A stretch of DNA of 35,807 nt. Source: Desulfurococcales archaeon (lineage in GTDB: Archaea; Thermoproteota; Thermoprotei_A; Sulfolobales; NBVN01). The stretch lies in NCBI GenBank assembly GCA_015521325.1, contig WAOK01000077.1, positions 1 through 35,807 on the forward strand, in the 5' to 3' direction. Below the pieces are notes generated by a model. That model searched no databases. It worked only from the letters and a program-made list of their open reading frames with translations, and was not told the DNA's origin. The position numbers and the translations under genes are program-made. Positions 2,509 through 35,167 of this stretch are shown here, piece by piece. Position 1 is the stretch's first letter, and each line of letters opens with the position of its first letter.

Positions 2509-3126
2509 GTGCCGGGGATGCTCGGAGAGCTTCTCGGGTACTACGTTCAGCTGCTGGCCATCATGAACCCCTTCTCCGCCCTCCCAACATTCTTGAGCCT
2601 CACCGAGGGCTTGGGGGAGGTCGAGAAGAGGGACATCGTCAGTAAGGCCTTGCTCGCCTCCCTCGTTCTTGTGGCTGTATTCACTCTGATCGGTAATTAT
2701 ATACTGATGGCCTTCAACATCTCCTTACCCGCCCTAAGGATCGGTGGCGGGGTCATACTGATGGCCATAGCCATCGATATGCTCGGTGGTATGCCGAGGA
2801 CTAAGAGGGTTGAGGCCCAGGACATAGCGGTCGTGCCCCTAGCGACCCCAATGGTTATTGGGCCCGGCACTATCACGACGATCCTCCTCCTAACGAGTAA
2901 GGACCCCTCACCCGCTGGCACCGCCGCCGTCCTCGTTGCGGGCCTCGCCGCGGCCGCCACGACCTTCGTCCTCCTCAGGTACTCCGAGCCGATAATCAGG
3001 GTGCTGAGGCAGTCGACGGTTAGGGCGATAGGTAGGTTCATGTCCCTAATAATAGCGAGCATAGCGGCAGAGATGATTGCCTACGGCGTCATCGCTTACT
3101 ACTACCAGATCGCCCCGCAAGCCTGA
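2509..3126 (+). CDS. MarC/UPF0056 family integral membrane protein
   Basis: Hydrophobic ~205 aa with NPFSALPTFLSLTEG and PLATPMVIGPGTITTILLL motifs typical of the MarC family; GTG start. Confidence 0.85.
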   Translation: MPGMLGELLGYYVQLLAIMNPFSALPTFLSLTEGLGEVEKRDIVSKALLASLVLVAVFTLIGNYILMAFNISLPALRIGGGVILMAIAIDMLGGMPRTKRVEAQDIAVVPLATPMVIGPGTITTILLLTSKDPSPAGTAAVLVAGLAAAATTFVLLRYSEPIIRVLRQSTVRAIGRFMSLIIASIAAEMIAYGVIAYYYQIAPQA

Positions 3127-11317: not shown

Positions 11318-11680
11318 TCAGTCCTCGCAGACTGAGGAATCTATTTTAACGCCATTAGATCCGAGGACCTCAATTAGGGGCCGGCACCCCCACATGGAGG
11401 CCCTATAGAGCTCCTCCTCAAGGTCCGGGTTACCAGCGAGTAGGGCCAGCGGTTTAAGGAAGAGCGACCTAAATATGAAGACGGCCTCCATATCATCGCC
11501 GTAGAAGTTCCGGAGCACCTCAAGCAACTGCCTCGGCTTCTTGATAACCGCCTCAGCTGGGTCGGTGCCGAGCTCCTTCATGATCACCCTGCCTAGGAGA
11601 ATGTACATGCCGGGAGATCTGGACATTATGTATTTCCTTACGTACTCGCGTATCTCGTTACTTATTCCGGGCACCAGCAC
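11318..11680 (-). CDS. small helical hypothetical protein, translationally coupled to upstream KaiC-like ATPase
   Basis: 120 aa; its start overlaps the end of ORF 11658-13079 by 23 nt on the same strand. Confidence 0.65.
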   Translation of the reverse strand: MLVPGISNEIREYVRKYIMSRSPGMYILLGRVIMKELGTDPAEAVIKKPRQLLEVLRNFYGDDMEAVFIFRSLFLKPLALLAGNPDLEEELYRASMWGCRPLIEVLGSNGVKIDSSVCED

Positions 11681-13079
11681 TCACCTCACATATTGTTTTT
11701 CTTATCTCGTCCGTGCAGAGCTCCACATCATCGTAGTCCAGTACAGCGGGGTCGTTACCGATTCCCCAGATGTAGAGGTGCCTCCTCAGCCTCCTGGAAC
11801 TACCGCCTCTCCGGTAATAGTACTTAACGACGACATCGGCTAAGCCAGCGTTGATGTTGTAGCTCTCCGTATCTATGAAGGCGCCGAGGCGGAAGGTGAG
11901 TATGCCCTTCTTCCTGAAGAAGAGGAGCTGGTTTTTGAGCAGGTCGATGTAGGTGTCTGAGGTGGGGAAGCTCATGTCCGTACCAACGAATATGACGACG
12001 TCCGGCGACCTATCATATATTATTCTCAGCTCCCTCGCGTAGAGCTCCTCAACGCTTAGGGCCGCTGGGTTAAACCCTATTATGTCCATGGTGTATCTCT
12101 CGAACAGATCCATTGCTTCTCTGCCGCACTCAAGCTTCTCAAGATACTCCCTAAGTAACTGGTGGAAGTGCTCAGGCGATAACCTGTAGGTGAATACGAG
12201 TGTCCTTGCCTTATTCATGCCCATGAAGGCGAGGAAGAACGGAAATATCTGGTGCGGCCTGGCGTCGGGCGGGTATGTTATGTAGACCACCATCCCGCCG
12301 TAGAGCCTCCCCACAACGTCTCTTAGGAGGGAGCAGGGCAGTTCGTAGACCTTCTCCGTTAGCCTGCCGGGGATCTCCTCGAGTGGTGGCGGGGCCCACA
12401 CCCTCAGCCCGACACCTCTCTCTATCGAGAACGGTACCCTCGCCATCGTTATGGGCGAGCCCCTAGCCTTCCGTATTTCTACCTCCCTAACGAGGCGGTT
12501 CCTCTGGATACTGTGTTTTAGGAAGAGTATGACGTCCGCAACGAATTCTATGTCACCTATCCCCATCGAGCCGTCGAGGAGCGGTATCTCTGATAGGAGA
12601 ACCATGAGGCCTCCCGTCCTCCTCAGCACCTCCGAGAAGTACTCCTGCAGTACGGACCTGGCCTTCAGATCGTCTCCGAAGGCCTTCAGAATGGGCGTTA
12701 TGGAGTCCACTACAACTATGTCCGGGCTGAATTCCTCTATTTGATGGTTTATGAAGTTCCCGGCCTCGAACCCGCCCTCCTGCCCGGCCATCTGGGGTAG
12801 CTTCACGTACCTGAAGTTCCCGCTGCCCTCGAGGTCCCTAAGCCTGATGCCGAGGAGGTCCATGTACATCATGAACTTATCTCTAGGCTCCTGAACAGAC
12901 ACGTAGAGGCATCTCTTGCCCCTCACAGCGTTGGCGTAGCACATCGTCGCAGCAAGGGTGGTCTTACCGGAGCCGGGGTGACCAGCTATCACAACAAGAG
13001 TCCCTGGTAGGAGGGCTCCCTTGAGCAATACGTCCAGTCCGTCGACGCCGAAGATGAAGTCTTTTCTTTCATACATCAT
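11658..13079 (-). CDS. KaiC/RAD55-like ATPase with second, degenerate RecA-like domain
   Basis: FGVDGLDVLLKGALLPGTLVVIAGHPGSGKTTLAATMCYANA (Walker A), DIVVVDSITPIL (Walker B); C-terminal half repeats the layout but lacks a P-loop (VYITYPPDARPHQI; DVVIFVGTDMSF). Confidence 0.85.
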   Translation of the reverse strand: MMYERKDFIFGVDGLDVLLKGALLPGTLVVIAGHPGSGKTTLAATMCYANAVRGKRCLYVSVQEPRDKFMMYMDLLGIRLRDLEGSGNFRYVKLPQMAGQEGGFEAGNFINHQIEEFSPDIVVVDSITPILKAFGDDLKARSVLQEYFSEVLRRTGGLMVLLSEIPLLDGSMGIGDIEFVADVILFLKHSIQRNRLVREVEIRKARGSPITMARVPFSIERGVGLRVWAPPPLEEIPGRLTEKVYELPCSLLRDVVGRLYGGMVVYITYPPDARPHQIFPFFLAFMGMNKARTLVFTYRLSPEHFHQLLREYLEKLECGREAMDLFERYTMDIIGFNPAALSVEELYARELRIIYDRSPDVVIFVGTDMSFPTSDTYIDLLKNQLLFFRKKGILTFRLGAFIDTESYNINAGLADVVVKYYYRRGGSSRRLRRHLYIWGIGNDPAVLDYDDVELCTDEIRKTICEVSAGARNK

Positions 13080-13161
13080 GCGAACACCCTATGGAATCAC
13101 CCAAATCGTTAGTCCTAAGGTTAAGTATTATTAACGGGACTCATAAAACCATTCCCTCCGA

Positions 13162-13974
13162 TCACACAAAGACGTAATACATGACCAATGCAACAAGAGC
13201 TGACATGACTGCGAGGAGCATCATATTATACCTATGGGATCCGCTCAGGACGCTGAGCACTACACCAGCACCAACGCCCTGCACGTAGAGCGTGTACGCA
13301 CCCAGCGCCTCCACCACAGACTTCACCTGCTCCACGCCCCCAGTGAGTATGTTCTCCGTACCCGCTAGCTCAACAAGGAAGAGGCGAATGACCAGTACTA
13401 GCACGAGCACATACACACCCAGTATCGTTATGAATGTTGCTGCCGCCTGCCTCGCCTGCGCGCGGAGGGCCGACTTAAACTCCGTAAGCTTCTCGAACAC
13501 CTTCCTCATCTCACCGACCGAGGAGTACAGCTGCTCACCGCCGAGGGCGAGTAGCTTTATGTACTCCCTAAAGACCCGGAGGTAGCTAGTGTCCCCAGGA
13601 ACGAGCCTATCCACCACTACGGCGAAGTCTTCCCCCGCCGCCACATACCTGAGCACCCTCTTCATTATGGGGCCGAAGGTCTTCACGTGCTCCGCCCCTT
13701 TCTCGTAGGCAGTGAATATGCTGAGCCCGGCTATCAGGCTCGCCTCAACCGCTGAGAGGAACGTCGGTATCTCGTACTCTATCCTCGTGATTAACCTGTC
13801 CCTCAGGTACTCAGCCACCCCGAAGGGTATGGTCGCTATGAGGAGGGATGCCGTGACCAGCACAGGGCCGGGCCAACCAATCAATGAGGAGAACCCCTTC
13901 TCCATGATCATGTATGTTGCTAGAGCGGTCCCCACGACCGCCGGCAACAGAGCGAGTAAGGCCCTCCTCATCAC
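13162..13974 (-). CDS. type II secretion F-domain membrane protein (TadC/FlaJ half-like)
   Basis: YEIPTFLSAVEASLIAGLSIFTAYEKGAE and multiple TM segments; adjacent to T4P ATPase. Confidence 0.75.
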   Translation of the reverse strand: MMRRALLALLPAVVGTALATYMIMEKGFSSLIGWPGPVLVTASLLIATIPFGVAEYLRDRLITRIEYEIPTFLSAVEASLIAGLSIFTAYEKGAEHVKTFGPIMKRVLRYVAAGEDFAVVVDRLVPGDTSYLRVFREYIKLLALGGEQLYSSVGEMRKVFEKLTEFKSALRAQARQAAATFITILGVYVLVLVLVIRLFLVELAGTENILTGGVEQVKSVVEALGAYTLYVQGVGAGVVLSVLSGSHRYNMMLLAVMSALVALVMYYVFV

Positions 13975-14702
13975 ACCCTCACCCGGTCAATCACTGTCTT
14001 CGCAAGCAGTGCCACAGCACTCATGGCCCCGATACTCATGAGCATGACGAGCACCGCCATGAGGGACGGGTCTATCCCCCCGGACCCGAAGACGAAGAGG
14101 GCTGCGAGGGCAGCAATCGCTGTTAGGGGCGCGAAGACGCCCGCAACGGTGTATATTTCCGTTATCATCGAGAGCTGTTGGGTGACTTTCTCTATCTCCT
14201 TCTCCTTCTCTATAAGGAGGTGAGATAACGTGTCCCTTATGAACGAAACCCCGCCTGTGCCAAACAGCGATGACCTTAGGAGGTTCTCTATGTATGTCCT
14301 GGCCATGCCCTTGAACCCGTCGAAGACCTTCTCCACGGCTTCCTCATGCCCGTACCCAGCCACTAGGTGCCTGTGAAGGAGTAGGAGTACCTTATCATCG
14401 AGCATCTCCGCAGCTCTCCCTAGCGCGTCGCTGGCTGAGAGCCCCGCGGTGAGGTACATGTCCATGAAGAGGTAGAGATACGGTATCTTAGGGGCTAGTT
14501 CCCGGTACGGCTCAACTTGCTTTATCCTGTATACGGCCAGAGACAGTGCCCCGACGGCCAGTAGGGGGAGGCCTATAGTGAACGACAGCACCTCGTTTAG
14601 GAGGCCCAAGAAGCCCGTGATGAGGAAGGCCGCGCCTGTAGAGACTAGGGCGGTGGACGTTATCACCGCCTGCCTAAAGCTCTGTGCTGCTGGGTGTGAC
14701 AC
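13971..14702 (-). CDS. type II secretion F-domain membrane protein (TadB/FlaJ half-like)
   Basis: PYLYLFMDMYLTAGLSASDALGRAAEM..., multiple TM; 4-nt overlap with the next T2SSF-like gene. Confidence 0.75.
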   Translation of the reverse strand: MSHPAAQSFRQAVITSTALVSTGAAFLITGFLGLLNEVLSFTIGLPLLAVGALSLAVYRIKQVEPYRELAPKIPYLYLFMDMYLTAGLSASDALGRAAEMLDDKVLLLLHRHLVAGYGHEEAVEKVFDGFKGMARTYIENLLRSSLFGTGGVSFIRDTLSHLLIEKEKEIEKVTQQLSMITEIYTVAGVFAPLTAIAALAALFVFGSGGIDPSLMAVLVMLMSIGAMSAVALLAKTVIDRVRV

Positions 14703-16143
14703 CGAGCCACCACCTCGTTATCTCCCTTATGAACTCCTCGTAGCTCAGGCCCTTAGCGACCGCCTTCTTTAGGAACTCGGTCTTCTTCTTTATCCCGTTA
14801 AGGAGGTACTCCACGGGTATGCCTTTCTGCTCCGATATCCTTTTGAGGGCGTGTGACGCCTCGGGTCTGTAAGACCTTTTGACGCCTTCCTCAGTTATCC
14901 TCATGCTGTAGACGGTCGTGAACTCGGGTTCGAGCCTCTCGTCGTCGATATCGATCAGGTCAGCTACCTCGACCACGTACCTGTTCACGAGGCCCCCTAT
15001 CCTAACCTTGGCCGCGTGGACTATGGTGTGGAGCTCCCTAATCATGTAGGGCGGTATCTCGAGGGGCTTCATCATGAGTCTCTTCACGAGGGATCTCGGG
15101 CTGTCCGCGTGGACGGTGCTGAGGCCGCCGTGCCCGAGGGATATTGCTTGGAAGAGGGCGTAGGCCTCCTCACCCCTGATCTCCCCGACGATGATGTAGT
15201 CAGGCCTCTGCCTCATCGCCGCCTTCACGAGGTCGAAGAGCGTGACCTTACCGACTGAGTCCAGGGCCTCCTTCGTTACGAGGTAGGACACGTTTGGGTG
15301 GGGTAGGTTTAGCTCCCTGACCTCCTCAACGACCACTATCTTCATGTTGTAGGGGATGAACGAAGCTATAGCGTTTAAGAGGGTGGTCTTCCCCGCCGCT
15401 GTCTCGCCTATGATGAGGATTGATGCCTTATTCTCCACCAGGGTCCACAGGTAAGCGAAGACCTCCGGAGGGGCCATGCCCGACGTTATGAGGTCAAGGA
15501 CGGAGAGCGGTACCTTCCTATGCTTCCGGATAACTACCTGCGCCCCCGTCGGCGAGACTGCCTCATGGACTATGTGCACCCTCAGCCCTCCAGGCATTGT
15601 GGCGTCCACGATCGGCCTGGTGTATGAGACCTGCTTGCCGCTCACGAACATTATCTTCTGGAGGTGTCTCCTAAGCTCTGACTCGTCCTCGAAGACTACG
15701 TTAGTTGGGAGGAGGTCGTACTTCGTGTACCAGACGAAGACCGGTTTCCCCACGCCGGAAACGTGTATGTCCTCTATGTTCGGGTCCCTAATGAGGGGGT
15801 CGAGCTTGCCGAACCCTATCAGGTCCCTCTCGAGGTAGTATAGGATGTAGTTGACCCTCTCCTCGGGGGGTTTCTTTGTCCTCATTATTTTCTTGTAGTA
15901 CTTCACTATGAGGGGCCTCACCCTCTCCCTGAACCCCTCCCTGTCAGTGAGGTCTATGTTGAGGTTGTACAGTATCTCGTCCTTGACAGCCCTGTAGACC
16001 TCCCATTCTTTCTCAGTGAGCTCCGGCTCAATCACCTCGTACATCATCCCCCTGTCGGGGTCGAAGACAAGCCTTGCCCGGGTGTAGGGACCCAGCTCGT
16101 ACTCAGTCACCACTGTCCTTGCGGTGTCCTCACTCACGGCCAC
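14674..16143 (-). CDS. type IV filament assembly ATPase (TadA/FlaI/VirB11 family)
   Basis: ILIIGETAAGKTTLLNAIASFIP (Walker A), IVVVEEVRELNLPH, DYIIVGEIRGEEAYALFQAISLGHGGLSTVHADS. Confidence 0.92.
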   Translation of the reverse strand: MAVSEDTARTVVTEYELGPYTRARLVFDPDRGMMYEVIEPELTEKEWEVYRAVKDEILYNLNIDLTDREGFRERVRPLIVKYYKKIMRTKKPPEERVNYILYYLERDLIGFGKLDPLIRDPNIEDIHVSGVGKPVFVWYTKYDLLPTNVVFEDESELRRHLQKIMFVSGKQVSYTRPIVDATMPGGLRVHIVHEAVSPTGAQVVIRKHRKVPLSVLDLITSGMAPPEVFAYLWTLVENKASILIIGETAAGKTTLLNAIASFIPYNMKIVVVEEVRELNLPHPNVSYLVTKEALDSVGKVTLFDLVKAAMRQRPDYIIVGEIRGEEAYALFQAISLGHGGLSTVHADSPRSLVKRLMMKPLEIPPYMIRELHTIVHAAKVRIGGLVNRYVVEVADLIDIDDERLEPEFTTVYSMRITEEGVKRSYRPEASHALKRISEQKGIPVEYLLNGIKKKTEFLKKAVAKGLSYEEFIREITRWWLGVTPSSTEL

Positions 16144-16163
16144 GGCTCAACCACCTCCGCTGC

Positions 16164-18869
16164 TTACGAGACAGCAATTACCCACACCTCACTCGTTCCA
16201 TCCTCCCTTACGTGGTAAAGGTAAGCTGTACCGGAAACAACGAGATAGGCTAGCCTGTCGCCCTCGCTCATAGGGTAGTACGGGAGCTGTGCCGCGGCCG
16301 CTGCCACCGACCCGGTCAAGGGGTCTATGTAGTGTATGCCGCCTCCCCTACCAATGACCCATAGGTAACCCCCGCCGTAGTCCATGCCAACAGGGAAAGC
16401 TGTGGGGGGTGCTGGGCTCATGGTTAACTGCGTCAGTGTCCTGGCGAACGGGTCGATCACGAGCAAATCACCGGACCCGCCTACGTAGATGTAGGCCTTC
16501 CTGGTGCTTTGGTCGTCCGCCGAACAGCTGTATTCGCCGATCGGTGACGGGGACGTTAGCCTCGTCACCAATGTCCCGTCGTAGGCCTTTAGGATGTAGA
16601 CATCCCTCGATCCCCCACCAGGCGCGTATATGAGGTACTGGTCGATCACCGCGGCCTGAGCGGAGTCGCTTGCGGGGGCCGGCAGCGATATCCCTGCAGC
16701 GACCGCCCCGGTGAAGGGGTCGTAAGTTAAGGTTGAGGAGTGGTTGACTATCACGAAAACCGCCCTGCCGTAGTCGAACGCTATCGCCGGGTTCACGAGC
16801 CTCCCAGGCAAGGACACTGAGGACCAGTTACCTGAGGCTATATCTAGCACGTATAGGGTGCTTGACAGGTTCGTTACCACAGCGAGTAGTGGGGTGCTGA
16901 GCGTCCTCAGGGTTATGACAGCGTCCCTGTACTCGGTGCTGAACTGGTCGCTGGAGGATACGTTAATCATCAGAGCCACTGGGTCGTTCGGGAAGTATGT
17001 GTTGGGCGTTCCCTCAACCACGAACAGGCCCGCGCCCGTGACCGACCTGTTGATCAGTATCCACGCACCGCTGACCCCCGCCTGAACGGTTACTGTGTAG
17101 GTTGTTGCTGGTCCGTCGATGTATAGGGTTATTGAGTAATTCACTACAGTCGTCGGCGCGTACCCCCTCCAGTAGAGTATCAGGCTCGATACATACGCCT
17201 GGACGGCGTTGCTGTACCCGCTGATCCCCGCCGGGTAAATCGCGACCGACGGCTCCACCGTAGCTTTCTTCCTCGGCCACAGCATCACGCTATTGTGGTT
17301 GTCCCAGTTGCTCGGGTTTTCGTTGTCACTCGTGACGAGGAGTGTGTAGTGGGTGCCGTCACCGTAGCTCACGCCTATGACTGGGGTGTCGTCGGTGCTG
17401 CTCGTCCCGTATATGGTGCCGTAGTCGAAGCGTATAAGGCCGTTACTGTAGAGCACCACATCGAAGTTCTGGGCGCCCCTGTTGTAGTAGAACTTAGTGG
17501 CCCACCTTATGAGGACACCCTGCCCGTACTCGTCGGAGTATGAGTCGTTTAGGTAGATGCCGGTGCCCGCTAGGTTAGTCATGAGGTCAGCCCAGAACGG
17601 GGCTATCATGCCCCTCGACTCCAGTTCCGCTATCGTGCTTGAGTAGTCCGCGCCAGCGTATGTCGTCCCTAAGAACCCGTTGCTGCAGACATAAACCGAG
17701 GAGTAGGTGGCTGAGTAGTATGGGAAGGTGAACGGCAGGGTGTAGGACCAGTACCCGTCATCAGCGCTCCACGCGCTTTGGTAGACCCCCTGGTTGAGGT
17801 CGAAGTAGTTGGCCCCCATGTCCCAGGGCTCGTAGTAGATCACGTAGTTGCCCCCGTCACTTGCCGGAAGCGGCTCCATCACCTTGAGGAGGCCGTGATG
17901 GGTTGCGTCGAAGGTGGCTGCGGGGTTCCCGTAGAGCATGTATATGGTGGTGTTCTCGCCTCCCCGGAGGAGAGGTACCTTAACCCATATTATGGCCTGC
18001 TCGGCCACGGGATCCCAGTACTGTATCCAGTAGTTGAGGAGAGTTACCCTGTCAGGGCCCAGGAACCTTATGTCGGAGCCGTCGGGGTTTGCCTGGGTGA
18101 AGTCGAAGTTCGTGCTGTTGAGCACTATCCTGACGGTGTAATTCGTGAGGTCCGTCCCTGTGTTCTCGGTTATGTTGATGACTTTGTAGTACGCCCAGTC
18201 AGCGTAGTTTGGGAATTCGTAGACCGTGCGTAACTCGGCACTCACTGTGGGGGGTGAGGTAGCTGTTAGTGTGCCGGAGGCGACTGAGTAATCGTTGTAC
18301 CTGACGGGGTTGGAGAGGCTGGAGTTGAATCCCTTGGCTGCGACAGTGTATGTGCTGAGTATTGATGGGGCGTAGAGGATGCTATACCCGCCCCCAGCTA
18401 TCACACCAGGGGTTGTTGGGAGGGGGTACCTGAACCTGTACACCCCGCCGTCCCTGCTTATGAGGACTATGAGGTATGAGGCGGACGAGTTGAAGCTCCC
18501 GGGTATGCTCACAGTTGCGGCTCCTCCGGCCGGCACGAGCTCGGATAGGGTACCCTCCCATCTCCTATTTGTTCCGTACTCTCTCACATAGTAGCTCGAA
18601 AGGATGACGTCGCTGGAGCCCTGGTTCACTAGGTTTAGTGTCATGCTCGAGGAAGTAACCGTTATTGATGTCGCGGTAAGGATCACCCTCCCAGCCCTGT
18701 TAATAGCGGCTAGCTGCGCAGTCACGGACGAGACCGCGTCGCTGAGGCTCTGGAAGGTTGCGTAGAGGAAGCCTGTCACAGCAAGCACTATCGCTATGAG
18801 GAACACCGCCGCGACAATGTTCGACACGCCCTTACGCGACAAGCGACGCCTCATAGACCGCTCCCCCAT
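16164..18869 (-). CDS. giant pilin-like protein: class III signal/pilin N-terminus + DUF2341 + beta-sandwich + C-terminal propeller-like region
   Basis: MRRRLSRKGVSNIVAAVFLIAIVLAVTGFLYATF; NYWIQYWDPVAEQAIIWVKVPLLRGGENTTIYMLYGNPAA (DUF2341); LPFTFPYYSATYSSVYVCSNGFLGT...IAPFWADL; repeated propeller-like blades at C-terminus. Confidence 0.85.
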   Translation of the reverse strand: MGERSMRRRLSRKGVSNIVAAVFLIAIVLAVTGFLYATFQSLSDAVSSVTAQLAAINRAGRVILTATSITVTSSSMTLNLVNQGSSDVILSSYYVREYGTNRRWEGTLSELVPAGGAATVSIPGSFNSSASYLIVLISRDGGVYRFRYPLPTTPGVIAGGGYSILYAPSILSTYTVAAKGFNSSLSNPVRYNDYSVASGTLTATSPPTVSAELRTVYEFPNYADWAYYKVINITENTGTDLTNYTVRIVLNSTNFDFTQANPDGSDIRFLGPDRVTLLNYWIQYWDPVAEQAIIWVKVPLLRGGENTTIYMLYGNPAATFDATHHGLLKVMEPLPASDGGNYVIYYEPWDMGANYFDLNQGVYQSAWSADDGYWSYTLPFTFPYYSATYSSVYVCSNGFLGTTYAGADYSSTIAELESRGMIAPFWADLMTNLAGTGIYLNDSYSDEYGQGVLIRWATKFYYNRGAQNFDVVLYSNGLIRFDYGTIYGTSSTDDTPVIGVSYGDGTHYTLLVTSDNENPSNWDNHNSVMLWPRKKATVEPSVAIYPAGISGYSNAVQAYVSSLILYWRGYAPTTVVNYSITLYIDGPATTYTVTVQAGVSGAWILINRSVTGAGLFVVEGTPNTYFPNDPVALMINVSSSDQFSTEYRDAVITLRTLSTPLLAVVTNLSSTLYVLDIASGNWSSVSLPGRLVNPAIAFDYGRAVFVIVNHSSTLTYDPFTGAVAAGISLPAPASDSAQAAVIDQYLIYAPGGGSRDVYILKAYDGTLVTRLTSPSPIGEYSCSADDQSTRKAYIYVGGSGDLLVIDPFARTLTQLTMSPAPPTAFPVGMDYGGGYLWVIGRGGGIHYIDPLTGSVAAAAAQLPYYPMSEGDRLAYLVVSGTAYLYHVREDGTSEVWVIAVS

Positions 18870-19248
18870 CAGTCACTATTGTCAGGTGATGCACCCCCGG
18901 CGCGAGACTCACAACAAACCTAATGCAGTTAATCTCCTCCGGGATGAGCGGGTAGTTGAAGCCCGAGATGTAATTACCCGGATCTACGGGAACATTATCC
19001 ACGTAGACCCTCACTACGCTGACCCTGACCTCCTCGCGTAGGTAGAGGCAGACCACCACCGTGTTATTGGAGTCTATGTAAAACGCGTCCACGACTTCGA
19101 GTCCCGCGGACTCCTGAACTATTCTCTCGATCTCCGCCACAGTGGCGTGGACCCTGGTTGAGAGGGAGAAGGCGAATGAAGCGTATACCGCCGACATTAT
19201 TGACGCGACGATAAGCACTAGAATTACCTCTGAGATAAGGGGCGACAC
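18832..19248 (-). CDS. FlaF/FlaG-like (archaellum stator-like) or pilin-like protein
   Basis: MSPLISEVILVLIVASIMSAVYASFAF N-terminal TM followed by beta-domain ending LAPGVHHLTIVTDGGAVYEASLV, FlaG-like layout; GTG start. Confidence 0.6.
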   Translation of the reverse strand: MSPLISEVILVLIVASIMSAVYASFAFSLSTRVHATVAEIERIVQESAGLEVVDAFYIDSNNTVVVCLYLREEVRVSVVRVYVDNVPVDPGNYISGFNYPLIPEEINCIRFVVSLAPGVHHLTIVTDGGAVYEASLVA

Positions 19249-19266
19249 ACCTAGGGCGTATCTATG

Positions 19267-19275
19267 TATAAAAAA
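19267..19275 (-). promoter_or_regulatory. TATA-box-like element (minus: TTTTTTATA)
   Basis: Centre ~22 nt upstream of GTG start at 19248; suggests a leaderless transcript. Confidence 0.4.
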
Positions 19276-19313
19276 GGGGTTCTAGAGGTTCCCAATCCTC
19301 CGCCACCCCCAGA

Positions 19314-19754
19314 TCACACCTTGACGGTTACGGTGACGGAGGAACCGTCGTCAGCGACGAGCTTTATTGTCCAGACCCCTGTAGTCACGGTTATTCCGGT
19401 GGTCGGCACCTTAACCAGCACGGTGCTCCCCGGCGCCACTGTGTAACCGCCGGAGCTAATGTCCTTGAAGTAGACGGTGCCGTCGGGAGCCGTTATGTAG
19501 GCCCTAACAACTTGCACGTTGCCGACGCCGTCGTTCCTTACGTAGATATAGAAGTTCGCGTCTGTGCTGTTGTAGTACGCCTCCTCAGCCGAAAGCACAC
19601 CAACAGGCCCGGCGAGGCTCCCCGTCCTGGAACCTATCCATCCACTGAAGTAAGCGTAGAGCAGGGTCCCCAGCGCCACGGCTACCAGCGTCATCAGGAC
19701 GACGGTTATTAGGTATGAGACACCCGAGCGCCTCTTCATAGAGTGATCACCCAT
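19314..19754 (-). CDS. class III signal peptide prepilin / archaellin-like protein
   Basis: MKRRSGVSYLITVVLMTLVAVALGTLLYAYFSGWIGSRTGS N-terminus, 146 aa, beta-rich remainder. Confidence 0.85.
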   Translation of the reverse strand: MGDHSMKRRSGVSYLITVVLMTLVAVALGTLLYAYFSGWIGSRTGSLAGPVGVLSAEEAYYNSTDANFYIYVRNDGVGNVQVVRAYITAPDGTVYFKDISSGGYTVAPGSTVLVKVPTTGITVTTGVWTIKLVADDGSSVTVTVKV

Positions 19755-23798: not shown

Positions 23799-25139
23799 TT
23801 GGGCAGGATCGCTGAGGAACTTAGGTCGTACCTAGCGGTGCTCCGGGAGTCGTGGCCCCTGATCATAGCCGAGAGCATAAGTAGCATAGCGTGGCTCGTT
23901 GACACGTTCTTCGTGAGCCTCCTCGGCGACGTAGCTGTTGCCGGGGTGGGCGCCGGGGGCTATGGCTCCTGGTTGCTTGGGGCCTTCAACACGCCTTTCT
24001 ACGTGGGTGTGATGGTTCTTGCTTCCCAAGCGATAGGTGCCAGGTCCCCGGATAAGGCATCGAGGGTGACGGGTGAGTCGCTGACGGCCGCATCACTCCT
24101 CAGCGCGGCGGTTGCGGGGATTGCCTACTTAATAGCGGATGACTTCATGCTTCTCCTCACATCAGACCCGGTAACGGCGGCAACGGCCTCCACATACCTG
24201 AAGGCCCGGGTATGGGGTCTCCCTGGACTAACCGCTTTCCTCGTTCTCGACGCCGCTTACCGGGCGGCCAAGAGGAATAGGGACATACTCTATGCCTCAC
24301 TCATATCCGCTGCGGCCAACGCTGTGCTCGACCCCATACTCATATTCTATGCGGAGCTGGGCGTGGCAGGTGCCGGCATAGCCACAGCCTCCTCGTTCTA
24401 TATGGGCGCCACCGTCCTCATGATTTACCCCAGAAAAAGGCTGGGCTTCAGTCCCTGGCCGAGGGTACCGCGGGGTCATGCACTCCGCTCCCTGGCCTTG
24501 GGGCTCCCGACATTCGCTGAGAGGATACTCATGAATTCAGCCCACGGCTTCTACATAGGGGCCATATCCAGGTGCGGGAGCGAGGCATTAGCGGCCCAGA
24601 CAATAGGCGTGAGGATAGAGTCAATAGCTTTCATGCCTGGCTTCGCCCTAAACACCTATGCCTCGAGCGCCGTCGGCCAGCTGGTTGGTGCCGGGAGGCT
24701 TGAGGAGGCTAAGGAGGAGGGCTGGAGGATCGCTAAGGTGGCCTTCCTCATGATGGCCCTAGCCGGGGCAGCATTAGTGGCTGTCTCCCTGTACGTCCCG
24801 TACCTGTTTGGTGTGAGTGAGGAGGTAGCTCATCTCTCCATGATATATCTCTTGATGGCGGCCGCTTCTGAGCCCTTTCTTGGCCTCGTCTTCGCCTTGA
24901 CCGGAGGCATTAGGGGAGCGGGCAACACGCTGGTGCCGACAGCAATAAACGCCGCGGGAATATACCTCTTCCGCGTCACCCCCTCAGTCCTGGTGGCTGC
25001 CCTCCACCCGTTCAGTGGGGTGGCCTGCCCCGTAGCTATATGGGCGTCGATGGACGCCGACGTTATCGCCAGGTCACTCATTCTGACATTCGTTTACAGG
25101 AGATGGTTAGAGCGCCTAGCTAGGCGATGGGTTTCCTGA
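23799..25139 (+). CDS. MATE family efflux transporter
   Basis: ~446 aa, 12 TM-like segments; WLVDTFFVSLLGDVAVAGVGAGG, AANAVLDPILIF..LGVAGAGIATASS. Confidence 0.88.
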   Translation: MGRIAEELRSYLAVLRESWPLIIAESISSIAWLVDTFFVSLLGDVAVAGVGAGGYGSWLLGAFNTPFYVGVMVLASQAIGARSPDKASRVTGESLTAASLLSAAVAGIAYLIADDFMLLLTSDPVTAATASTYLKARVWGLPGLTAFLVLDAAYRAAKRNRDILYASLISAAANAVLDPILIFYAELGVAGAGIATASSFYMGATVLMIYPRKRLGFSPWPRVPRGHALRSLALGLPTFAERILMNSAHGFYIGAISRCGSEALAAQTIGVRIESIAFMPGFALNTYASSAVGQLVGAGRLEEAKEEGWRIAKVAFLMMALAGAALVAVSLYVPYLFGVSEEVAHLSMIYLLMAAASEPFLGLVFALTGGIRGAGNTLVPTAINAAGIYLFRVTPSVLVAALHPFSGVACPVAIWASMDADVIARSLILTFVYRRWLERLARRWVS

Positions 25140-25626
25140 TTAAGGACCACTTCCTATACGCCGCGGCTAGCCCGATTAGAGTGACGTACACCATGGTCGT
25201 CACAGCCGAGGACACAACGTTAATGCCTGCAGGCGTTAGGTTAAGGACGAGGCCCGTCAGGGAGGTCACGGCGAATGATGAAACGACGGACAGCCCCAGC
25301 CTCTCGAGGTCGTTCAAGGAGTTTTCGCGAGGGAAGAATAACTCCACCGTGACGTAGCCGGGTAGGAAGAACATAATGAACGCGCCGAGGACGAGCCTCA
25401 AGGGTATCGCCCAGGGGAGGAGGAACACTGTCGCCACAGCAAATAAGCCTGTCAATACTGATGCCCAGAACCATAGCGAGTAATCGGGCCTGAGAACGTA
25501 TTCGAGGAAGTCCCTCGGCGGTGACGGATCCTTTATCACTAACTCGCCCGACGCGTACATTCTGTAAGCCCTGAGAACACCGCCTTCACCAAGCCTCCTA
25601 ACGTACTCTTCCAGCGACTCACTCAC
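25120..25626 (-). CDS. DUF1616-like membrane protein
   Basis: RLVLGAFIMFFLPGYVTVELFFPRENSLNDLERLGLSVVSSFAVTSLTGLVLNLTPAGIN matches the DUF1616 pattern. Confidence 0.8.
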   Translation of the reverse strand: MSESLEEYVRRLGEGGVLRAYRMYASGELVIKDPSPPRDFLEYVLRPDYSLWFWASVLTGLFAVATVFLLPWAIPLRLVLGAFIMFFLPGYVTVELFFPRENSLNDLERLGLSVVSSFAVTSLTGLVLNLTPAGINVVSSAVTTMVYVTLIGLAAAYRKWSLIRKPIA

Positions 25627-26189
25627 GGCAGCGGCACCTCCCTAACCTCGACAGCCAGCGATGCGTACCTCCCGCTATACACCCAGGAACCATCGCTCAA
25701 GTACCACAACTCGAAGACAAGCGCAGCGCGCTGTCCCCCGCTCACGTTACCCGGTATCATGGCGATGACGCGTACCGAGTCATTAGACCAGGAATCAACG
25801 GCATCATATACTGTGCTTATTACTGGGGCACTCGATGGCCTTTCCTCATCCGGCATTGTTGAGTTCCCATAGACGAACCTGTACCTAATCATTAGCATGG
25901 AGGGCTCCCTCCTCCCATTCACTACGATGATGCATAAGGTGAGGTTCTCTCCCGGGAATACCACCTCAGGGTAGTCGCCTAAGACGCACCTCTCGTTAAG
26001 AAGGGCTATGCCGAGGTACTCCTCTGGGCTGTTATATACTTGCCTGATCCCCGAAAACGATGGGACACCGCCCTCAACCGAGTAAATCACTAGGTAGTCC
26101 GTCCTGTAAATCTCTACGGCCGCCACAAGTGAGGCAACAGTCGCTAACGCTACCAGGAACGCCAGAACCTCACCGCTACCTATCTTCAT
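25623..26189 (-). CDS. membrane-anchored extracytoplasmic protein (resembles the extracytoplasmic half of DUF1616 proteins)
   Basis: Single N-terminal TM, beta-rich ectodomain with NxS/T sites; 4-nt overlap with DUF1616 gene. Confidence 0.6.
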   Translation of the reverse strand: MKIGSGEVLAFLVALATVASLVAAVEIYRTDYLVIYSVEGGVPSFSGIRQVYNSPEEYLGIALLNERCVLGDYPEVVFPGENLTLCIIVVNGRREPSMLMIRYRFVYGNSTMPDEERPSSAPVISTVYDAVDSWSNDSVRVIAMIPGNVSGGQRAALVFELWYLSDGSWVYSGRYASLAVEVREVPLP

Positions 26190-26595
26190 AGTCTACCACC
26201 CACCTCTTCCTAGAAAGGTACCAGGCCCAGGCACAGACCCGCGGAAGAGCGAAATATGTGATGAGCGGTGTCGCCAAGGTCGAGGCAAGGAGGCCGTACT
26301 TAATCAGTGCAGAAACCGATGCCGCCTCCCCGGATACGTTGCGGAGCTGACTTATCTTAGACTCTAGGCTGTTAAGCACGTTGAGGAGATCCGCATCACT
26401 GATCTCCCCTTTACTCCACGCCGCTAGCGACTTCCCGAGCTCCCTCACGAGGTTCGAAACATCTACCCCAGCCGCGCGAAGTTCGGAAAGTTCCCTGTAG
26501 ATTTTCTCAGCCTTGCCTAGGAGGCCTTCATCCGATAACGCGTGGACGGCGGTGATCATGATCACGGCCAGCAACAGGATCGCCGCAACCCTCAT
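26176..26595 (-). CDS. small secreted/membrane helical protein of unknown function
   Basis: Signal-like N-terminus, coiled helices, TM near C-terminus; 14-nt overlap with the next gene. Confidence 0.65.
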   Translation of the reverse strand: MRVAAILLLAVIMITAVHALSDEGLLGKAEKIYRELSELRAAGVDVSNLVRELGKSLAAWSKGEISDADLLNVLNSLESKISQLRNVSGEAASVSALIKYGLLASTLATPLITYFALPRVCAWAWYLSRKRWVVDYEDR

Positions 26596-29152: not shown

Positions 29153-29407
29153 CTAGGTGATCACCCCTAGGACCTGCGCCACTTTGTAAGCTATGGCTAA
29201 CGAGAATACCGCCGCGAGGATAGTGTCCGCATACCTCATCTCCGCTCTCTCACGCATCTCGCTCCCCGACGACGTCACAAGGAAGTACTCGAGGACAGCT
29301 ACGGCGACGTAGAACACAACATCCCTCACACCGGCGAGCACCAAGGCTGAATTGAGCACGGTATTGGTGAGGGCCAGCGCCAGAAGCTCTTTCTCATACC
29401 TCCTCAA
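29153..29407 (-). CDS. small membrane protein of unknown function
   Basis: 84 aa, about three hydrophobic segments; ATGA-type 4-nt overlap with upstream gene. Confidence 0.65.
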   Translation of the reverse strand: MRRYEKELLALALTNTVLNSALVLAGVRDVVFYVAVAVLEYFLVTSSGSEMRERAEMRYADTILAAVFSLAIAYKVAQVLGVIT

Positions 29408-30075
29408 CCCATCCTCACCACCGCAACGTAGGTATCGCCAGTTAGATCCTCCCTAACCAGCACCACCCTACTACCTACGGCCGACGCTGCGTGGGCTAGG
29501 GTAAGGACCCTCATCATCCCGAACGGATAGCGGAGAGAGTCCGCTGCCTCCCTGCGAACTCCGAGGAACTCTATAGTTGCCTCCTCACCCCTAACCTTGA
29601 CAATGACCCTCGAGCTGAGTGAGAGGTGGTTCATGGCAGAGAGGAGCCTCTCAACGACACCGCCAGCGGCCTTCGGCACAACGGTATGGACCACCATCCC
29701 TATGTACGGACCGCTCGATGATAGGCCCACCCCCGGCACTACCTCACTGCAGTCGATCGGGGCCCCCGACACAACGTATAGGGCCTTACCCTCGCTCACT
29801 AGACACGCGGTGGCGACCCACTCAGGCACGAGCCCCATATCCTCAGCCAGCCTCGTCAAGGTTACCTCGGCCGAGGACCGGTACTCCCTTAATGCCTCTG
29901 TAAGGGGTTCCTTGAACGTTGCCCCGAAGACGAGTATGACCAGACCAAGTATCAATGTAGATGCGGATACACCGAGCACGGAAGGGGATCCGAAGAATAT
30001 CGCCCCTAAAGCGAAGAGCTCTGATATAATCACTATGTTAGCGCCGAGCAGCACGTACTTCTCCTTCATGGGCAC
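29404..30075 (-). CDS. membrane protein of unknown function (two TM plus soluble domain)
   Basis: 223 aa; two N-terminal TM segments; directly abuts MoxR gene. Confidence 0.65.
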   Translation of the reverse strand: MPMKEKYVLLGANIVIISELFALGAIFFGSPSVLGVSASTLILGLVILVFGATFKEPLTEALREYRSSAEVTLTRLAEDMGLVPEWVATACLVSEGKALYVVSGAPIDCSEVVPGVGLSSSGPYIGMVVHTVVPKAAGGVVERLLSAMNHLSLSSRVIVKVRGEEATIEFLGVRREAADSLRYPFGMMRVLTLAHAASAVGSRVVLVREDLTGDTYVAVVRMG

Positions 30076-31074
30076 TCACTCCTTGGGCACGGGAACCCTT
30101 CCGAGAACATCGCGGACTATGTCAGCGGGCGATAAACCCTCGACCTCCCTCTCCTGCTTGAGGATTATTCTATGCGAGAGGACAGGAACAGCCAGTGCCT
30201 TCACGTCGTCTGGTATGACGTAATCCCTCCCCCTTAGGAGGGCTAGCGCCTTAGCCACCCTATAGAGGTATATTGTTCCTCTGTGGCTTGGCCCCATCCT
30301 TACTTCGGGCGCCGCCCTCAAGGCCCTGGCTATGTCAACCAGGTACTTAACGACCCGAGTATCTACGTAGATACCCTTCCCTAGGAAGGTCTGGATAGTG
30401 CTGAACTCCTCCGCCGTCGTGACCTGCTCGACAGAGTCGACGCTGACGGTATATAGCTCGTCAGCCCTCTCAACGATCCTCAACTCGTCGTCAGTGCCTA
30501 CGTACTCCACCCCTATGCTGGCCCAGAACCTGTCCCTCAGGGCTAGGGAAAGCGGGTAAACACCGCCCACCTCCTCCTCGGCAGGTATCTCCGTGGCTAT
30601 CACCCAGAACGGTCTGGGTAGCCTATGCGATACACCATCAACGCTAACCGCCCCCTCAGCCATCGCCTCAAGTAGTGCCGACTGCACCCTAGTAGGGGTT
30701 CTGTTCAGCTCATCAACCATGAGGACGTTGCTGAAGACGGGGCCTTTAATGAAGCGCTTGCTGCCGTCTAGCCCATATATATAGTAGCCGGTGAGGTCAG
30801 TGGGCAGGAGATCCGGGTTCCCTTGAACCCTCCTAAACTCCCCTCCCACAGCCTTGGCGAAGGCCTTAGCCATTAGGGTCTTTGCCGAGCCAGGGGGTCC
30901 CTCAAGCAGTACGTGGCCGCCTGCGGCGAAGACCAGCGCTATAAGCTCTACGGCCGTCCTTACCCCTATCACAACCTTCTCCACGGACCCGATGACCTCC
31001 TTAAGGATGGACCTCGCCTCGTCAAAGTCCATTAGGCCTCTAGTCGTCAACGCATAACCCCTCCACGCACTCAC
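30076..31074 (-). CDS. MoxR family AAA+ ATPase
   Basis: GGHVLLEGPPGSAKTLMAKAFAKAVGGEFRRVQGNPDLLPTDLTGYY, VLMVDELNRTPTRVQSALLEAMAEG, PFWVIATEIPAEEEGVYPL-like region. Confidence 0.94.
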   Translation of the reverse strand: MSAWRGYALTTRGLMDFDEARSILKEVIGSVEKVVIGVRTAVELIALVFAAGGHVLLEGPPGSAKTLMAKAFAKAVGGEFRRVQGNPDLLPTDLTGYYIYGLDGSKRFIKGPVFSNVLMVDELNRTPTRVQSALLEAMAEGAVSVDGVSHRLPRPFWVIATEIPAEEEVGGVYPLSLALRDRFWASIGVEYVGTDDELRIVERADELYTVSVDSVEQVTTAEEFSTIQTFLGKGIYVDTRVVKYLVDIARALRAAPEVRMGPSHRGTIYLYRVAKALALLRGRDYVIPDDVKALAVPVLSHRIILKQEREVEGLSPADIVRDVLGRVPVPKE

Positions 31075-31091: not shown

Positions 31092-32726
31092 TCACCCGCT
31101 TTTATTTTTGCTAGTGAAGCGCAGAACCATCCTCAATTTCCCCATACCCGCTCTCGACAAGGCGTTTACTGCTATGAAGGCGGCCGATGCCGCCAGCGAG
31201 GTATTGAGCAGTGTTGCTAGGGTCGATACGTACAGCCTCGGCTCAGTTGGGGAGCCTATTGTGGTGGCGAGCTCGTTTAGGAAGTCCGTTATCTTAGCCG
31301 CTATTGAGAGAGCGTTGCTCCTGGCCGTCATCGCCATGAGGGACACTCTTACGTATGTCTGGGATGTCCTGCCCTCCGCCGTCGTCTCGAGCTTGTAGAC
31401 AGCGTAACCGAGCACGAGGGTCTTGGTGCCCCTAGCAGCAACTATTATGTTCACGGTAGCGTTCCTCGTCTCCACCCAGCTCTCAATTATGGAATACCCC
31501 TGCGCTGTGAGGCAGACCTGCCACCCATGGAACCTGGACGGCGTCTCCGCGATCTCTAGGTAGCCGCTGAACCTCTTACCCGCGTAGCTCACAACGATGC
31601 TCCTGACCGAGAGAGCACCAATCATCTCCCCAACTATGGGGTGAGGGACATCATACAGCACGCTAGCGTTCGTTAGGTTAAGCACTATGGAGGCGGGTGA
31701 CTGCAGGAGCCTCTCGAGAGACACCGTAGGGGTCGTCTCTGCCGTTATCGAGTTAGCCACGTACTCCGCTGTGAAGGGGTAGGCGATCGAGGCGATTAGC
31801 ACGAGAGCGACTGAGAGAACACTGACACCCCTCCTCACAATATTCATGAGCCTCCTCGGTCTGGGTAGCTTAAGGACTATCATCACAGCCGCTGCCGCGG
31901 CGATGGATGCGTAGAGGATTGATGGAAGGCTGTGGAATAAGTCAAGAGCTAGGGAGTAACTGACGTACCGCGTGACTAGGACAACCGACATGAGTCTGAG
32001 CAGGTTCCCGGCGAGAACTATGGTGAGGCCGACTGTGAGCGCCTTAGCTAGGGTAATCAGCTTCCTCTTCCTCACACTGACGGAGCTCATCGCGTGGTAG
32101 ATCAGGAACGGGGTGAGGGAGAGTATGGATAGGATGCTGACTATCCCTGCGCACGTCGGTGCGACATAGAACGTCCTAACCACGCCACCTGCATCGCTTA
32201 TCTTTAGGAGGAGGTACGCCCTAGTCTCTATTAATTCGGCCCCAGTAACGAACGCCGTGAGCTTCGTCGAGAGCACTGTGAGCGGTACGGACATCGAGTA
32301 AACGAACTCTGAAGGAAGGGGGGTGAGGGCGGCTAGCAATAGAAGGGATGAGATACTCGCCAAGAAGGTCTTGAATCTGAAGAGGAGCGACATCATGGCC
32401 CAGCCGAATGCTGCGAGAGATAGGATACCGAGCTGGAGAGCGTAGGGCGGGGACAGCCTGGCTAGGGCGTATAGTGAGAGGGACAGCACCAGGCTTAATG
32501 CCGCCGAGACTGCTGAGTAGGCATTAGGCGAGGATGGCTCCGCATGCTTTAGGATCAGAACAATGAGGAGCCAGAAAACAACGGGGACCAGGACAACGAG
32601 GTATGCATAGTCCTCAGTATTCACTAAGGCGACATAGTCGTAGATGTAGTTTGGGTAGAGCGTGGACGCGACTGAGAGGAGGACAGCGACCAGAACGATT
32701 ACGTGGAGGGGTGACGCCTTCTCCAT
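31092..32726 (-). CDS. archaeosortase/exosortase family transmembrane transpeptidase with C-terminal EpsI-like domain
   Basis: Multi-TM N-half with VAPTCAGIVSI (Cys192), NLLRLMSVV (Arg244), LFHSLPSI (His265); C-terminal ectodomain RFHGWQVCLTAQGYSIIESWV resembling the EpsI/DUF3485 H..VCL..GW motif. Confidence 0.8.
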   Translation of the reverse strand: MEKASPLHVIVLVAVLLSVASTLYPNYIYDYVALVNTEDYAYLVVLVPVVFWLLIVLILKHAEPSSPNAYSAVSAALSLVLSLSLYALARLSPPYALQLGILSLAAFGWAMMSLLFRFKTFLASISSLLLLAALTPLPSEFVYSMSVPLTVLSTKLTAFVTGAELIETRAYLLLKISDAGGVVRTFYVAPTCAGIVSILSILSLTPFLIYHAMSSVSVRKRKLITLAKALTVGLTIVLAGNLLRLMSVVLVTRYVSYSLALDLFHSLPSILYASIAAAAAVMIVLKLPRPRRLMNIVRRGVSVLSVALVLIASIAYPFTAEYVANSITAETTPTVSLERLLQSPASIVLNLTNASVLYDVPHPIVGEMIGALSVRSIVVSYAGKRFSGYLEIAETPSRFHGWQVCLTAQGYSIIESWVETRNATVNIIVAARGTKTLVLGYAVYKLETTAEGRTSQTYVRVSLMAMTARSNALSIAAKITDFLNELATTIGSPTEPRLYVSTLATLLNTSLAASAAFIAVNALSRAGMGKLRMVLRFTSKNKSG

Positions 32727-32810: not shown

Positions 32811-33446
32811 ATGAAGGCTAGGCTGGCGTCGGACGCTATAGCGCTGTCTGCCGTGGTTATCAATTACGTCATCTCCTCTGAACCTCTGGCGGGGCTCACC
32901 CTACTCCTCGTAGCCCTCGTTCTCTCCCTTAACATAGCCTTCATAGGGGGAGCTTTCCTCGGCCTCTGGGCCCTGGCAGCGGCCGCCGCCGCGAGGTATG
33001 TCGCAGGTTTTGTTACCGGGCCCCCGATCGCTGTTATGACCCTCTACTTAGTTCTTCTATCTGTGCTGCACAGGTTCGTGGAACTTCCCGAAGACGCCGA
33101 GAATAGAGTCGTGTTGGTGCTAAGTGCTCTAGGAGCTGGCGGTGCCGCTGCGTTGATCACTAATCCAGCCCTCGTAGCCTGGGTGGTGATGGGCCCAATA
33201 GTAGACAACGCCGTCGAGGAACTGATTAATGACGCATACCACCTGGGCGGGAGGGCCGCTACGGCCTCAGCCATTATAGCCAGAGCCTCCGTAGCATTAG
33301 CTGCAGGTGTCCACCCGGTTCTCGCTGCCGCCGCAGCAGCAACACCACCAGCAAGGGCAGCTATAGGCAGAGGGTACCTCTTCATTATCCTTGATACTGC
33401 GGTTAGGGCGGTAGGCACCTACTTACTGGGGGTGCAGACACCTTGA
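32811..33446 (+). CDS. polytopic membrane protein of unknown function
   Basis: 211 aa, mostly hydrophobic; divergent from archaeosortase and overlapping the DUF4129 gene start. Confidence 0.7.
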   Translation: MKARLASDAIALSAVVINYVISSEPLAGLTLLLVALVLSLNIAFIGGAFLGLWALAAAAAARYVAGFVTGPPIAVMTLYLVLLSVLHRFVELPEDAENRVVLVLSALGAGGAAALITNPALVAWVVMGPIVDNAVEELINDAYHLGGRAATASAIIARASVALAAGVHPVLAAAAAATPPARAAIGRGYLFIILDTAVRAVGTYLLGVQTP

Positions 33447-35167
33447 GGGCAGCGGCAGCGGTCGCCTTGGTCGTGATACTGATCGCAATACATGCACTGG
33501 CCCAGGAGAGGCCGCCGTATGACCCGGCTCCGCCAGCCCTCCTCCTAAGGGATGCGCTCCTCGCGATAACGTCGGAGGACTACGCCAGAGCATCTGAGCT
33601 CATCGGGCTCGGCCTGAACATGAGCATTGAGGGAAAGCTTGGCAGGGTTCATGAGGAGACGTTCTTGGCCCTCAAGGACACGGTCGCCCTCATCGAGGAT
33701 TCCCTTTCTAACCCGTCTAGGGAGAAGGCATACGAGCTGTTCCGTGCGAGGGAGCAGGTCGGCGCCCTGGTGGAGAGATATGCCAGCATAGTCCGTGATG
33801 AGTGCCCCGACCCAGCCACCGGCTACCGACTCTACAATGACCTTATGTCCGCAAGAACCCTATTCCTCAACCACCTGGACGACCTGATAGAGAGAGTATA
33901 CGTGTTCTCCGGCCCTAGAAATATTGAGGTAGCGATTAAGCACCCTCCAGTAGTTGTGGGGGGAGAGTTCGTTAACGTGACCGTCTCTGTGGGTGAGGCT
34001 GACAGTATCGACTGCCTCAACGTGACCGTTAAGGCCGTTGCCGCCTCCTACAAGGAGATAGCGAGGATATCGTGCGCAACACCCGGCAACTCCTACACGG
34101 TGACGCTCAAGGCCCCGGGTGCTGAGGACGTCCCCCCAGATACTAGGTACGTCGCCTTCACAGCCCTAGTGATCGGGTCGAGCGAGGGGAGAGAGTACAC
34201 GGGCTATAACATCAGTAAGGCACAGCTCTATTTCGAAAAACCCCTCCTCCTCTTCAACATACCGTCATCCGCCACCCCAGGAGACAACCTAACCATTGGT
34301 GTGAGAGCTAGGATAGACTACAGCCTCAACGCATCAGTGTATTTCGGGAGGATAAGCCCAGACTCGCTAATAGAGAACATAACGATTAGGCCCGGATACA
34401 GCACCTACCCGGTACCCTTAAGCAACAAGTCCGGAGTGATCATAGTGTATGTCGTTGTCTGGCCCCACGGAAAGTACCTCGGCTACGTCTACTCAAAGGC
34501 CGTGGCCGTGTTCGGCGAGATAGTCATCGCTGATGTGAGGGCTCCGGCCATAGTCTTCTCCCCACCCTTCTCCACGATCCTTAACGTGAAGGTAGGGAAC
34601 ATAACCGGGAGGGTAAGGGTTTATGTCGGGGGTACCCTAGCGAAGGAGTTTGACGTCAGCGGCTCATCAAGCGCTGTCATACCCCTTCCCCCGACGCTGA
34701 CTGCATGGAGTTACCCGGTGACGGTGGAGGTGGTGCCGAATGAGAGCAAGTACGCCCCCTACACCTACAGGAGCAGCATAATAGTTGTCAACATATACGG
34801 GACAGTCGCCATCTCAATGACCCTCATAGCGATCCTCACCAGCAGAAGGGTGAGGGAATTCATAAAGCACCCTCTAGAGCGTGGCGGCATCCCCGGAGGC
34901 ATTGGTAGGGTGAGGGCACTCAGTGTAAAGAGGGCCAAGCTCGCAAGACTGTATAAAGCAGTGGTCGAGCACATCAGCAACGAGGTAGACCCTCCTAGGC
35001 CGTGGGAGACCCTCCGCGAGTTCGGTGCGAGGGCTGCGAAGAGGCTTAAGAGAAGAGTCGCTGACCTACTGACCTACTTCCTCGCTCTCTACGAGGAGGA
35101 TCTGTACAGCGATCACATAGTTAATGAGGATGAGGCAGAGAAGCTTGTTGAGGAGATCCTTAGGTGA
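33443..35167 (+). CDS. secreted/membrane protein with ectodomain, one TM and C-terminal DUF4129-like cytoplasmic domain
   Basis: N-terminal signal, Ig-like beta ectodomain, TM IYGTVAISMTLIAIL, then YKAVVEHISNEVDPPRPWETLREFGARAAKRL...LTYFLALYEEDLYSDHIVNEDEAEKLVEEIL (DUF4129-like). TTG start. Confidence 0.75.
   Translation: MRAAAAVALVVILIAIHALAQERPPYDPAPPALLLRDALLAITSEDYARASELIGLGLNMSIEGKLGRVHEETFLALKDTVALIEDSLSNPSREKAYELFRAREQVGALVERYASIVRDECPDPATGYRLYNDLMSARTLFLNHLDDLIERVYVFSGPRNIEVAIKHPPVVVGGEFVNVTVSVGEADSIDCLNVTVKAVAASYKEIARISCATPGNSYTVTLKAPGAEDVPPDTRYVAFTALVIGSSEGREYTGYNISKAQLYFEKPLLLFNIPSSATPGDNLTIGVRARIDYSLNASVYFGRISPDSLIENITIRPGYSTYPVPLSNKSGVIIVYVVVWPHGKYLGYVYSKAVAVFGEIVIADVRAPAIVFSPPFSTILNVKVGNITGRVRVYVGGTLAKEFDVSGSSSAVIPLPPTLTAWSYPVTVEVVPNESKYAPYTYRSSIIVVNIYGTVAISMTLIAILTSRRVREFIKHPLERGGIPGGIGRVRALSVKRAKLARLYKAVVEHISNEVDPPRPWETLREFGARAAKRLKRRVADLLTYFLALYEEDLYSDHIVNEDEAEKLVEEILR

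Follow-up and report, generated by a model that had tools for sequence, protein, structure and literature searches.

A single chain of 544 residues, encoded in the window (the whole 35,807-nucleotide stretch of Desulfurococcales DNA analysed here), joins a membrane domain of the exosortase/archaeosortase superfamily to an ectodomain that profile-profile comparison shows to be homologous to bacterial EpsI. Across its family, the ectodomain cysteine Cys405 tends to be lost together with the Cys/Arg/His triad of the membrane domain, which suggests that both serve one reaction. Exosortase-type membrane enzymes trim and anchor surface proteins, and the host of this one is a heat-loving archaeon. 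The features of the locus are collected in Table 1.

Table 1. Coordinates of the fusion gene, its named residues and its neighbours in the window
Feature	Position	Strand	Basis or remark
Exosortase-EpsI-like fusion, 544 aa	31092..32726	-	Exosortase domain first, then EpsI-like ectodomain, then C-terminal TM segment with basic tail
Exosortase transmembrane domain, residues 27-274	31905..32648	-	PF09721; TIGR04178 at residues 186-287
Cys192 codon, C-x-G motif, putative nucleophile	32151..32153	-	Translation, alignment
Arg244 codon, N-x-x-R motif	31995..31997	-	Translation, alignment
His265 codon, F-H-x-x-P-S motif	31932..31934	-	Translation, alignment
EpsI-like ectodomain, residues 328-496, flanked by TM segments	31239..31745	-	AlphaFold2; hhalign to bacterial EpsI
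His400 codon, H-x4-C motif	31527..31529	-	Alignment
Cys405 codon, H-x4-C motif	31512..31514	-	Alignment
MoxR-type AAA+ ATPase, operon partner	30076..31074	-	PF07726, E 1.5e-42; conserved neighbour
223-aa membrane protein (p223), operon partner, without Pfam family	29404..30075	-	Conserved neighbour
84-aa TM protein, operon partner	29153..29407	-	Conserved neighbour
DUF4350 + TM + DUF58-like fusion, 831 aa	26644..29139	-	PF14258, E 1.4e-11; DUF58 weak, E 0.16
p139, 139 aa: signal, helical ectodomain, TM	26176..26595	-	Conserved PR-x-Y-(x3)-W-(x3)-R-x2-W
p188, 188-aa ectodomain protein, resembling DUF1616 C-terminal part	25623..26189	-	Weak: PF07760 178-224, E 0.085
DUF1616 N-terminal membrane part	25120..25626	-	PF07760, E 6.8e-19
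211-aa multi-TM protein, divergent gene	32811..33446	+	Weak homologue between MoxR and p223 in L097
DUF4129 protein (ectodomain, TM, DUF4129)	33443..35167	+	PF13559, E 1.1e-7

Domain architecture and homology of the two halves

The open reading frame translates without internal stops, and the protein contains only two cysteines, Cys192 and Cys405. Translation confirmed the codon positions that the sequence-only reading had assigned to Cys192, Arg244 and His265 as well as its placement of His400 and Cys405. In an alignment of eight members, the invariant residues of the N-terminal half are G181, C192, G194, G240, N241, R244, F264, H265, P268 and S269, and those of the ectodomain are H400, W402, C405, Q409, G410 and W417.

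By its profile matches, the N-terminal half is a member of the exosortase/archaeosortase superfamily. It matches PF09721 with an E value of 3e-10 (40.4 bits against a cut-off of 25.7), which is the single match to this model in the genome, and the exosortase/archaeosortase signature model TIGR04178 with 26.9 bits against a cut-off of 23. A profile of the archaeal N-terminal halves aligns with the corresponding bacterial XrtD profile at P 1.6e-7. The earlier designation of the protein as an archaeosortase therefore holds for the superfamily but not for any named subfamily: none of the exosortase/archaeosortase subfamily models (ArtA-F, Xrt*) reaches its cut-off, and neither the Art models nor TIGR02602, the model of classical bacterial EpsH, gives a match at E 1. 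Classical EpsH is defined by the motifs C-x-G, N-x-x-R and H-x-x-x-G with six invariant residues (PMC1569441). The first two of these motifs are present in the archaeal family, and the third takes the form H-x-x-P-S, lacking the glycine at +4. Cys192, Arg244 and His265 are placed on three consecutive predicted helices, in a model that is weak at residues 190-193 (pLDDT <50).

AlphaFold2 predicted the ectodomain with good confidence (pLDDT 81.7, pTM 0.78) as mainly strands, with a helix at the C-terminal end. Structures in the PDB superpose poorly on the prediction, the best TM-score being about 0.39; fold searches returned only Bet v1/PYL-like and MTC28 matches with TM-scores <=0.39, on which we base no fold assignment. 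Because hydrophobic segments at about 293-318 and 502-520 bracket the domain and the tail is basic, the ectodomain is predicted to be extracellular.

Curated models do not reach this domain. PF11984 has no match among 26 relatives even at E 1, and TIGR02914 matches neither the fusion protein nor anything else in its genome; in other genomes of the order its matches stay below threshold, at 13.6 bits or less. For comparison, bacterial EpsI and EpsI-fused XrtD sequences were taken from annotated plasmids; a written bacterial EpsI consensus served only as bait, and the matches that it retrieved are annotated records. A shallow first hhalign comparison (score 27.1, P 0.002, shuffles <=17.8) was superseded by deeper profiles, in which the ectodomains of 33 archaeal members with an intact triad align with 10-11 bacterial EpsI/XrtD domains at scores of 44.7-46.1 (P 1.6e-6 to 3.6e-6). 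When long archaeal forms are added, the combined profile aligns with bacterial EpsI over 144 columns at a score of 49.1 (P 6.5e-7). The hhalign Prob values are 87-92%, 150 column shuffles score <=18.2 and 12 unrelated real profiles <=17.9, and the H-x4-C motifs of the two sides fall in register unprompted. A bridge is provided by the long exosortases of Thermoproteota (L077-L087), whose ectodomains carry LHxWExCL and align with those of the fusion family at P about 1e-8 in profile-profile comparison; one of them aligns with positions 4-428 of the 486 in the XrtD model and thus reaches its EpsI part.

These scores, the register of H-x4-C and the bridge show that the ectodomain shares ancestry with bacterial EpsI over its whole length, although it lies beyond the reach of the curated models and is not a model-defined member. 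The EpsI-like domain of the sequence-only reading is thus upheld by profile comparison although PF11984 and TIGR02914 miss it, and its motif H-x-V-C-L-x-G-W is present but better written as H-x4-C-[LY]-x3-G-[WFY]. That H-x4-C is convergent in an ectodomain unrelated to EpsI, as the two unmatched models and the poor PDB superposition might suggest, is very improbable given profile-profile scores of 44-49 against at most 18 for controls, a collinear full-domain alignment, the long-exosortase bridge and the same location C-terminal to an exosortase domain. Scans of the viral_contigs set with bacterial EpsI, XrtD and P0001 gave no matches.

Relatives, operon and substrate search

Searches of 147 and then 214 genomes of the order located the fusion family in 43 of the 214. 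The relatives that bear names are Desulfurococcales MAGs, Thermosphaera and Thermogladius among them; most are 21-37% identical to the window protein, and PF09721 matches 22 of the 26 that were aligned. In a profile scan of genome contigs, a query built from the single protein recovered no relatives and one built from the alignment recovered ten Desulfurococcales loci.

A paralogue clade (L116, L117, L119 and L120, from genomes G107, G512, G494 and G140) has a IHVWEVCLPWQN-type ectodomain motif and an intact triad. No operon genes were seen in the stretches read near this clade or near a further copy in G502, and G140 holds three copies of the family. The long exosortases (for example L078:1468-3486, forward strand) have about 690 residues arranged as exosortase, CxxC-CxxC, TM, EpsI-like ectodomain, TM and extended C-terminus. 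The C-terminus of L087 is winged-helix-like (PF08461, E 4e-4, slightly below cut-off), and these proteins are possibly sortases that signal to the cytoplasm.

In most relatives, the fusion gene lies in an operon with genes for MoxR, the 223-aa and 84-aa proteins, DUF4129, DUF4350, DUF58, p139, p188 and DUF1616. The DUF4129 gene, divergent in the window, is found within the operon in relatives, and DUF4350 and DUF58, fused in the window, are two adjacent genes in many of them. DUF1616 is apparently split (25120-26189, reverse strand) into an N-terminal membrane gene and a 188-aa ectodomain gene, as it is in most relatives, where the likeness of p188 to the DUF1616 C-terminal part is clearer. 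DUF1616 occurs in 38 of the 43 sortase-bearing genomes and in 34 of the 171 others (Fisher 6e-17, kinship not corrected for). Seven neighbourhoods of long exosortases were checked; three have a same-strand DUF1616 gene close by, and the MoxR/DUF58 operon was not found. The literature search returned no paper treating MoxR, DUF58 and DUF4129 jointly and none linking exosortases to the MoxR/DUF58/DUF4129 system and DUF1616; in the literature searched, DUF1616 appears only in work on Haloferax glycoproteins.

The short PGF-CTERM and CGP-CTERM models, used in a coarse first look, match nothing in the host's own genome and yielded no sorting signal or substrate there, and none of the genes next to the operon was recognised as S-layer-like. 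Two candidate substrates were rejected. In p139 the conserved motif does not precede the TM segment but falls inside it and beyond it. A secreted-looking 718-aa protein (3089-5245, reverse strand; no Pfam match) has a C-terminal TM segment and basic tail but no homologue in 210 other genomes of the order; contig C99 of this assembly carries a second copy of 519 aa, 93% identical. The window also contains a Tad/type IV pilus-like cluster (11658-19754, reverse strand), which adjoins a KaiC-like ATPase gene and encodes a T2SSE ATPase, two membrane proteins, pilin-like proteins and a 901-aa protein that combines a pilin-like N-terminus with DUF2341 and NIDO.

Covariation of Cys405 with the triad and proposed mechanism

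Loss of the catalytic residues was followed in 43 members having both halves, of which 33 are triad-intact and ten triad-broken. Since 33 of 43 keep Cys/Arg/His and every one of these also keeps H400 and C405, the pattern is conserved and not a product of chance. Triad-broken members retain C405 in 3/10 cases (against 33/33, Fisher 3.7e-6) and H400 in 6/10. C405 is the conserved ectodomain column most often lost among them; H400 and Q409 are each lost in four, and L406 and W417 are kept in all ten. Branch lengths are ordinary in five triad-broken members (L010, L014, L017, L110 and L113), and these keep H400 in 5/5 and C405 in 2/5, namely in L014 and L110. The tree requires nine triad changes, four of them forced by well-supported branches. 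In four independent pairs on well-supported branches, C405 tracks the triad in 3.7 on average and the reverse direction never occurs; the phylogeny-corrected sign test gives p 0.125, four pairs being too few to give 0.05. An eleventh case, G049, has His-to-Gln on one contig and C405-to-Tyr on another, and the two pieces are probably one gene. The loss of C405 along with the triad suggests, as evidence and not proof, that its thiol serves the same reaction.

The reading that we favour, with some confidence, is that the fusion protein is a membrane cysteine sorting protease or transpeptidase with its own EpsI domain in one chain, that it works as one subunit of an envelope complex encoded by the operon, and that Cys405 takes part in the same reaction. 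By analogy with the superfamily and with ArtA, Cys192, together with Arg244 and His265, would attack the C-terminal signal of an exported protein at the outer face of the membrane. The EpsI-like domain would be held outside by the TM helices on either side, and His400 and Cys405 would share in the reaction; they might, for instance, take up the acyl intermediate or the acceptor or hold it in position, or else control the redox state of Cys192. The envelope complex would consist of the products of the MoxR/DUF58/DUF4129/DUF1616 genes. Lineages that no longer require the chemistry would lose the triad and Cys405 and keep the scaffold in the operon.

The triad-broken members themselves raise another reading, in which the present role of the protein, as a subunit of a MoxR/DUF58 membrane complex, is chiefly structural or regulatory and sorting catalysis is secondary or lost. 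All ten have open frames, half evolve at ordinary branch lengths, and eight adjoin operon genes (L097, L102, L113, L121, L125, L131, L136 and L137, in genomes G079, G503, G499, G086, G031, G386, G019 and G085). Their persistence in the operon implies that the protein can matter without catalysis and is evidence, though not proof, that the scaffold has a further role. For the family at large, this reading is nevertheless unlikely: catalytic and ectodomain residues are kept in very diverged sequences by 33 of 43 members, the window's included, which argues that catalysis is under selection there.

Two further proposals are somewhat less probable still. One makes Cys405 a second reactive cysteine, with acyl hand-off from Cys192 to Cys405 and on to the acceptor in an envelope complex assisted by the AAA+ protein MoxR; we regard it as a doubtful extension of the favoured reading, and if it were true, EpsI domains would be catalytic in general. 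The other, about equally doubtful, takes the protein for a conventional archaeosortase of the haloarchaeal type, which would cut a PGF-type signal of an S-layer glycoprotein before lipid attachment and use the ectodomain only as an accessory for substrate docking. It draws on the common superfamily, the shared Cys/Arg/His and the processing of the S-layer glycoprotein C-terminus by ArtA in haloarchaea (PMC5744192; PMC11980579), but sits poorly with the absence of any Art model match and with the outcome of the substrate search, in which the host genome gave neither PGF-CTERM nor CGP-CTERM matches at that coarse level and the operon showed no recognisable S-layer-like neighbour.

Comparison with known systems

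EpsI is a companion of bacterial exosortases, for which a 2006 paper recorded no known function (PMC1569441). The archaeal variant makes this old question testable: the triad-broken series shows an EpsI residue tending to go with exosortase chemistry and so names the residue to mutate. The archaeal fusion, which has diverged too far for present models, extends the range of EpsI to Thermoproteota, and its operon connects exosortases both to DUF1616 and to the MoxR/DUF58/DUF4129 system, which is poorly understood. A literature search that did not cover the archaeosortase survey published by Haft et al. in 2012 returned no paper joining exosortase and DUF3485.

Bacterial EpsI (PF11984, DUF3485; TIGR02914), which adjoins or is fused to an exosortase, has the homologous domain with H-x4-C in register, but the fusion ectodomain falls under both model cut-offs and reads [FL]HxWxxCLxxQGY where EpsI reads HxPExC[LY]PxxG[WF]. 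The archaeosortases ArtA-ArtF belong to the same exosortase superfamily in archaea and have the C-x-G, N-x-x-R and H motifs; in contrast, the fusion protein is unmatched by their models and has, in addition, an ectodomain and a further TM segment at the C-terminus. The long Thermoproteota exosortases likewise combine an exosortase with an EpsI-like domain, but they have a zinc-ribbon-like CxxC-CxxC segment of their own between the domains, as well as the extended C-terminus. The VPLPA-CTERM-specific XrtD of Rhodobacterales (TIGR04152) is also one chain of about 530-545 aa, with an exosortase TM domain followed by EpsI with H-x4-C. Only this architecture is held in common, as TIGR04152, with its 400-bit cut-off, does not match the fusion protein. 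XrtD scores far over the EpsI models and has glycosyltransferase genes as neighbours, whereas the fusion protein has an EpsI domain diverged beyond the models, an archaeal host and a MoxR/DUF58/DUF4129/DUF1616 context.
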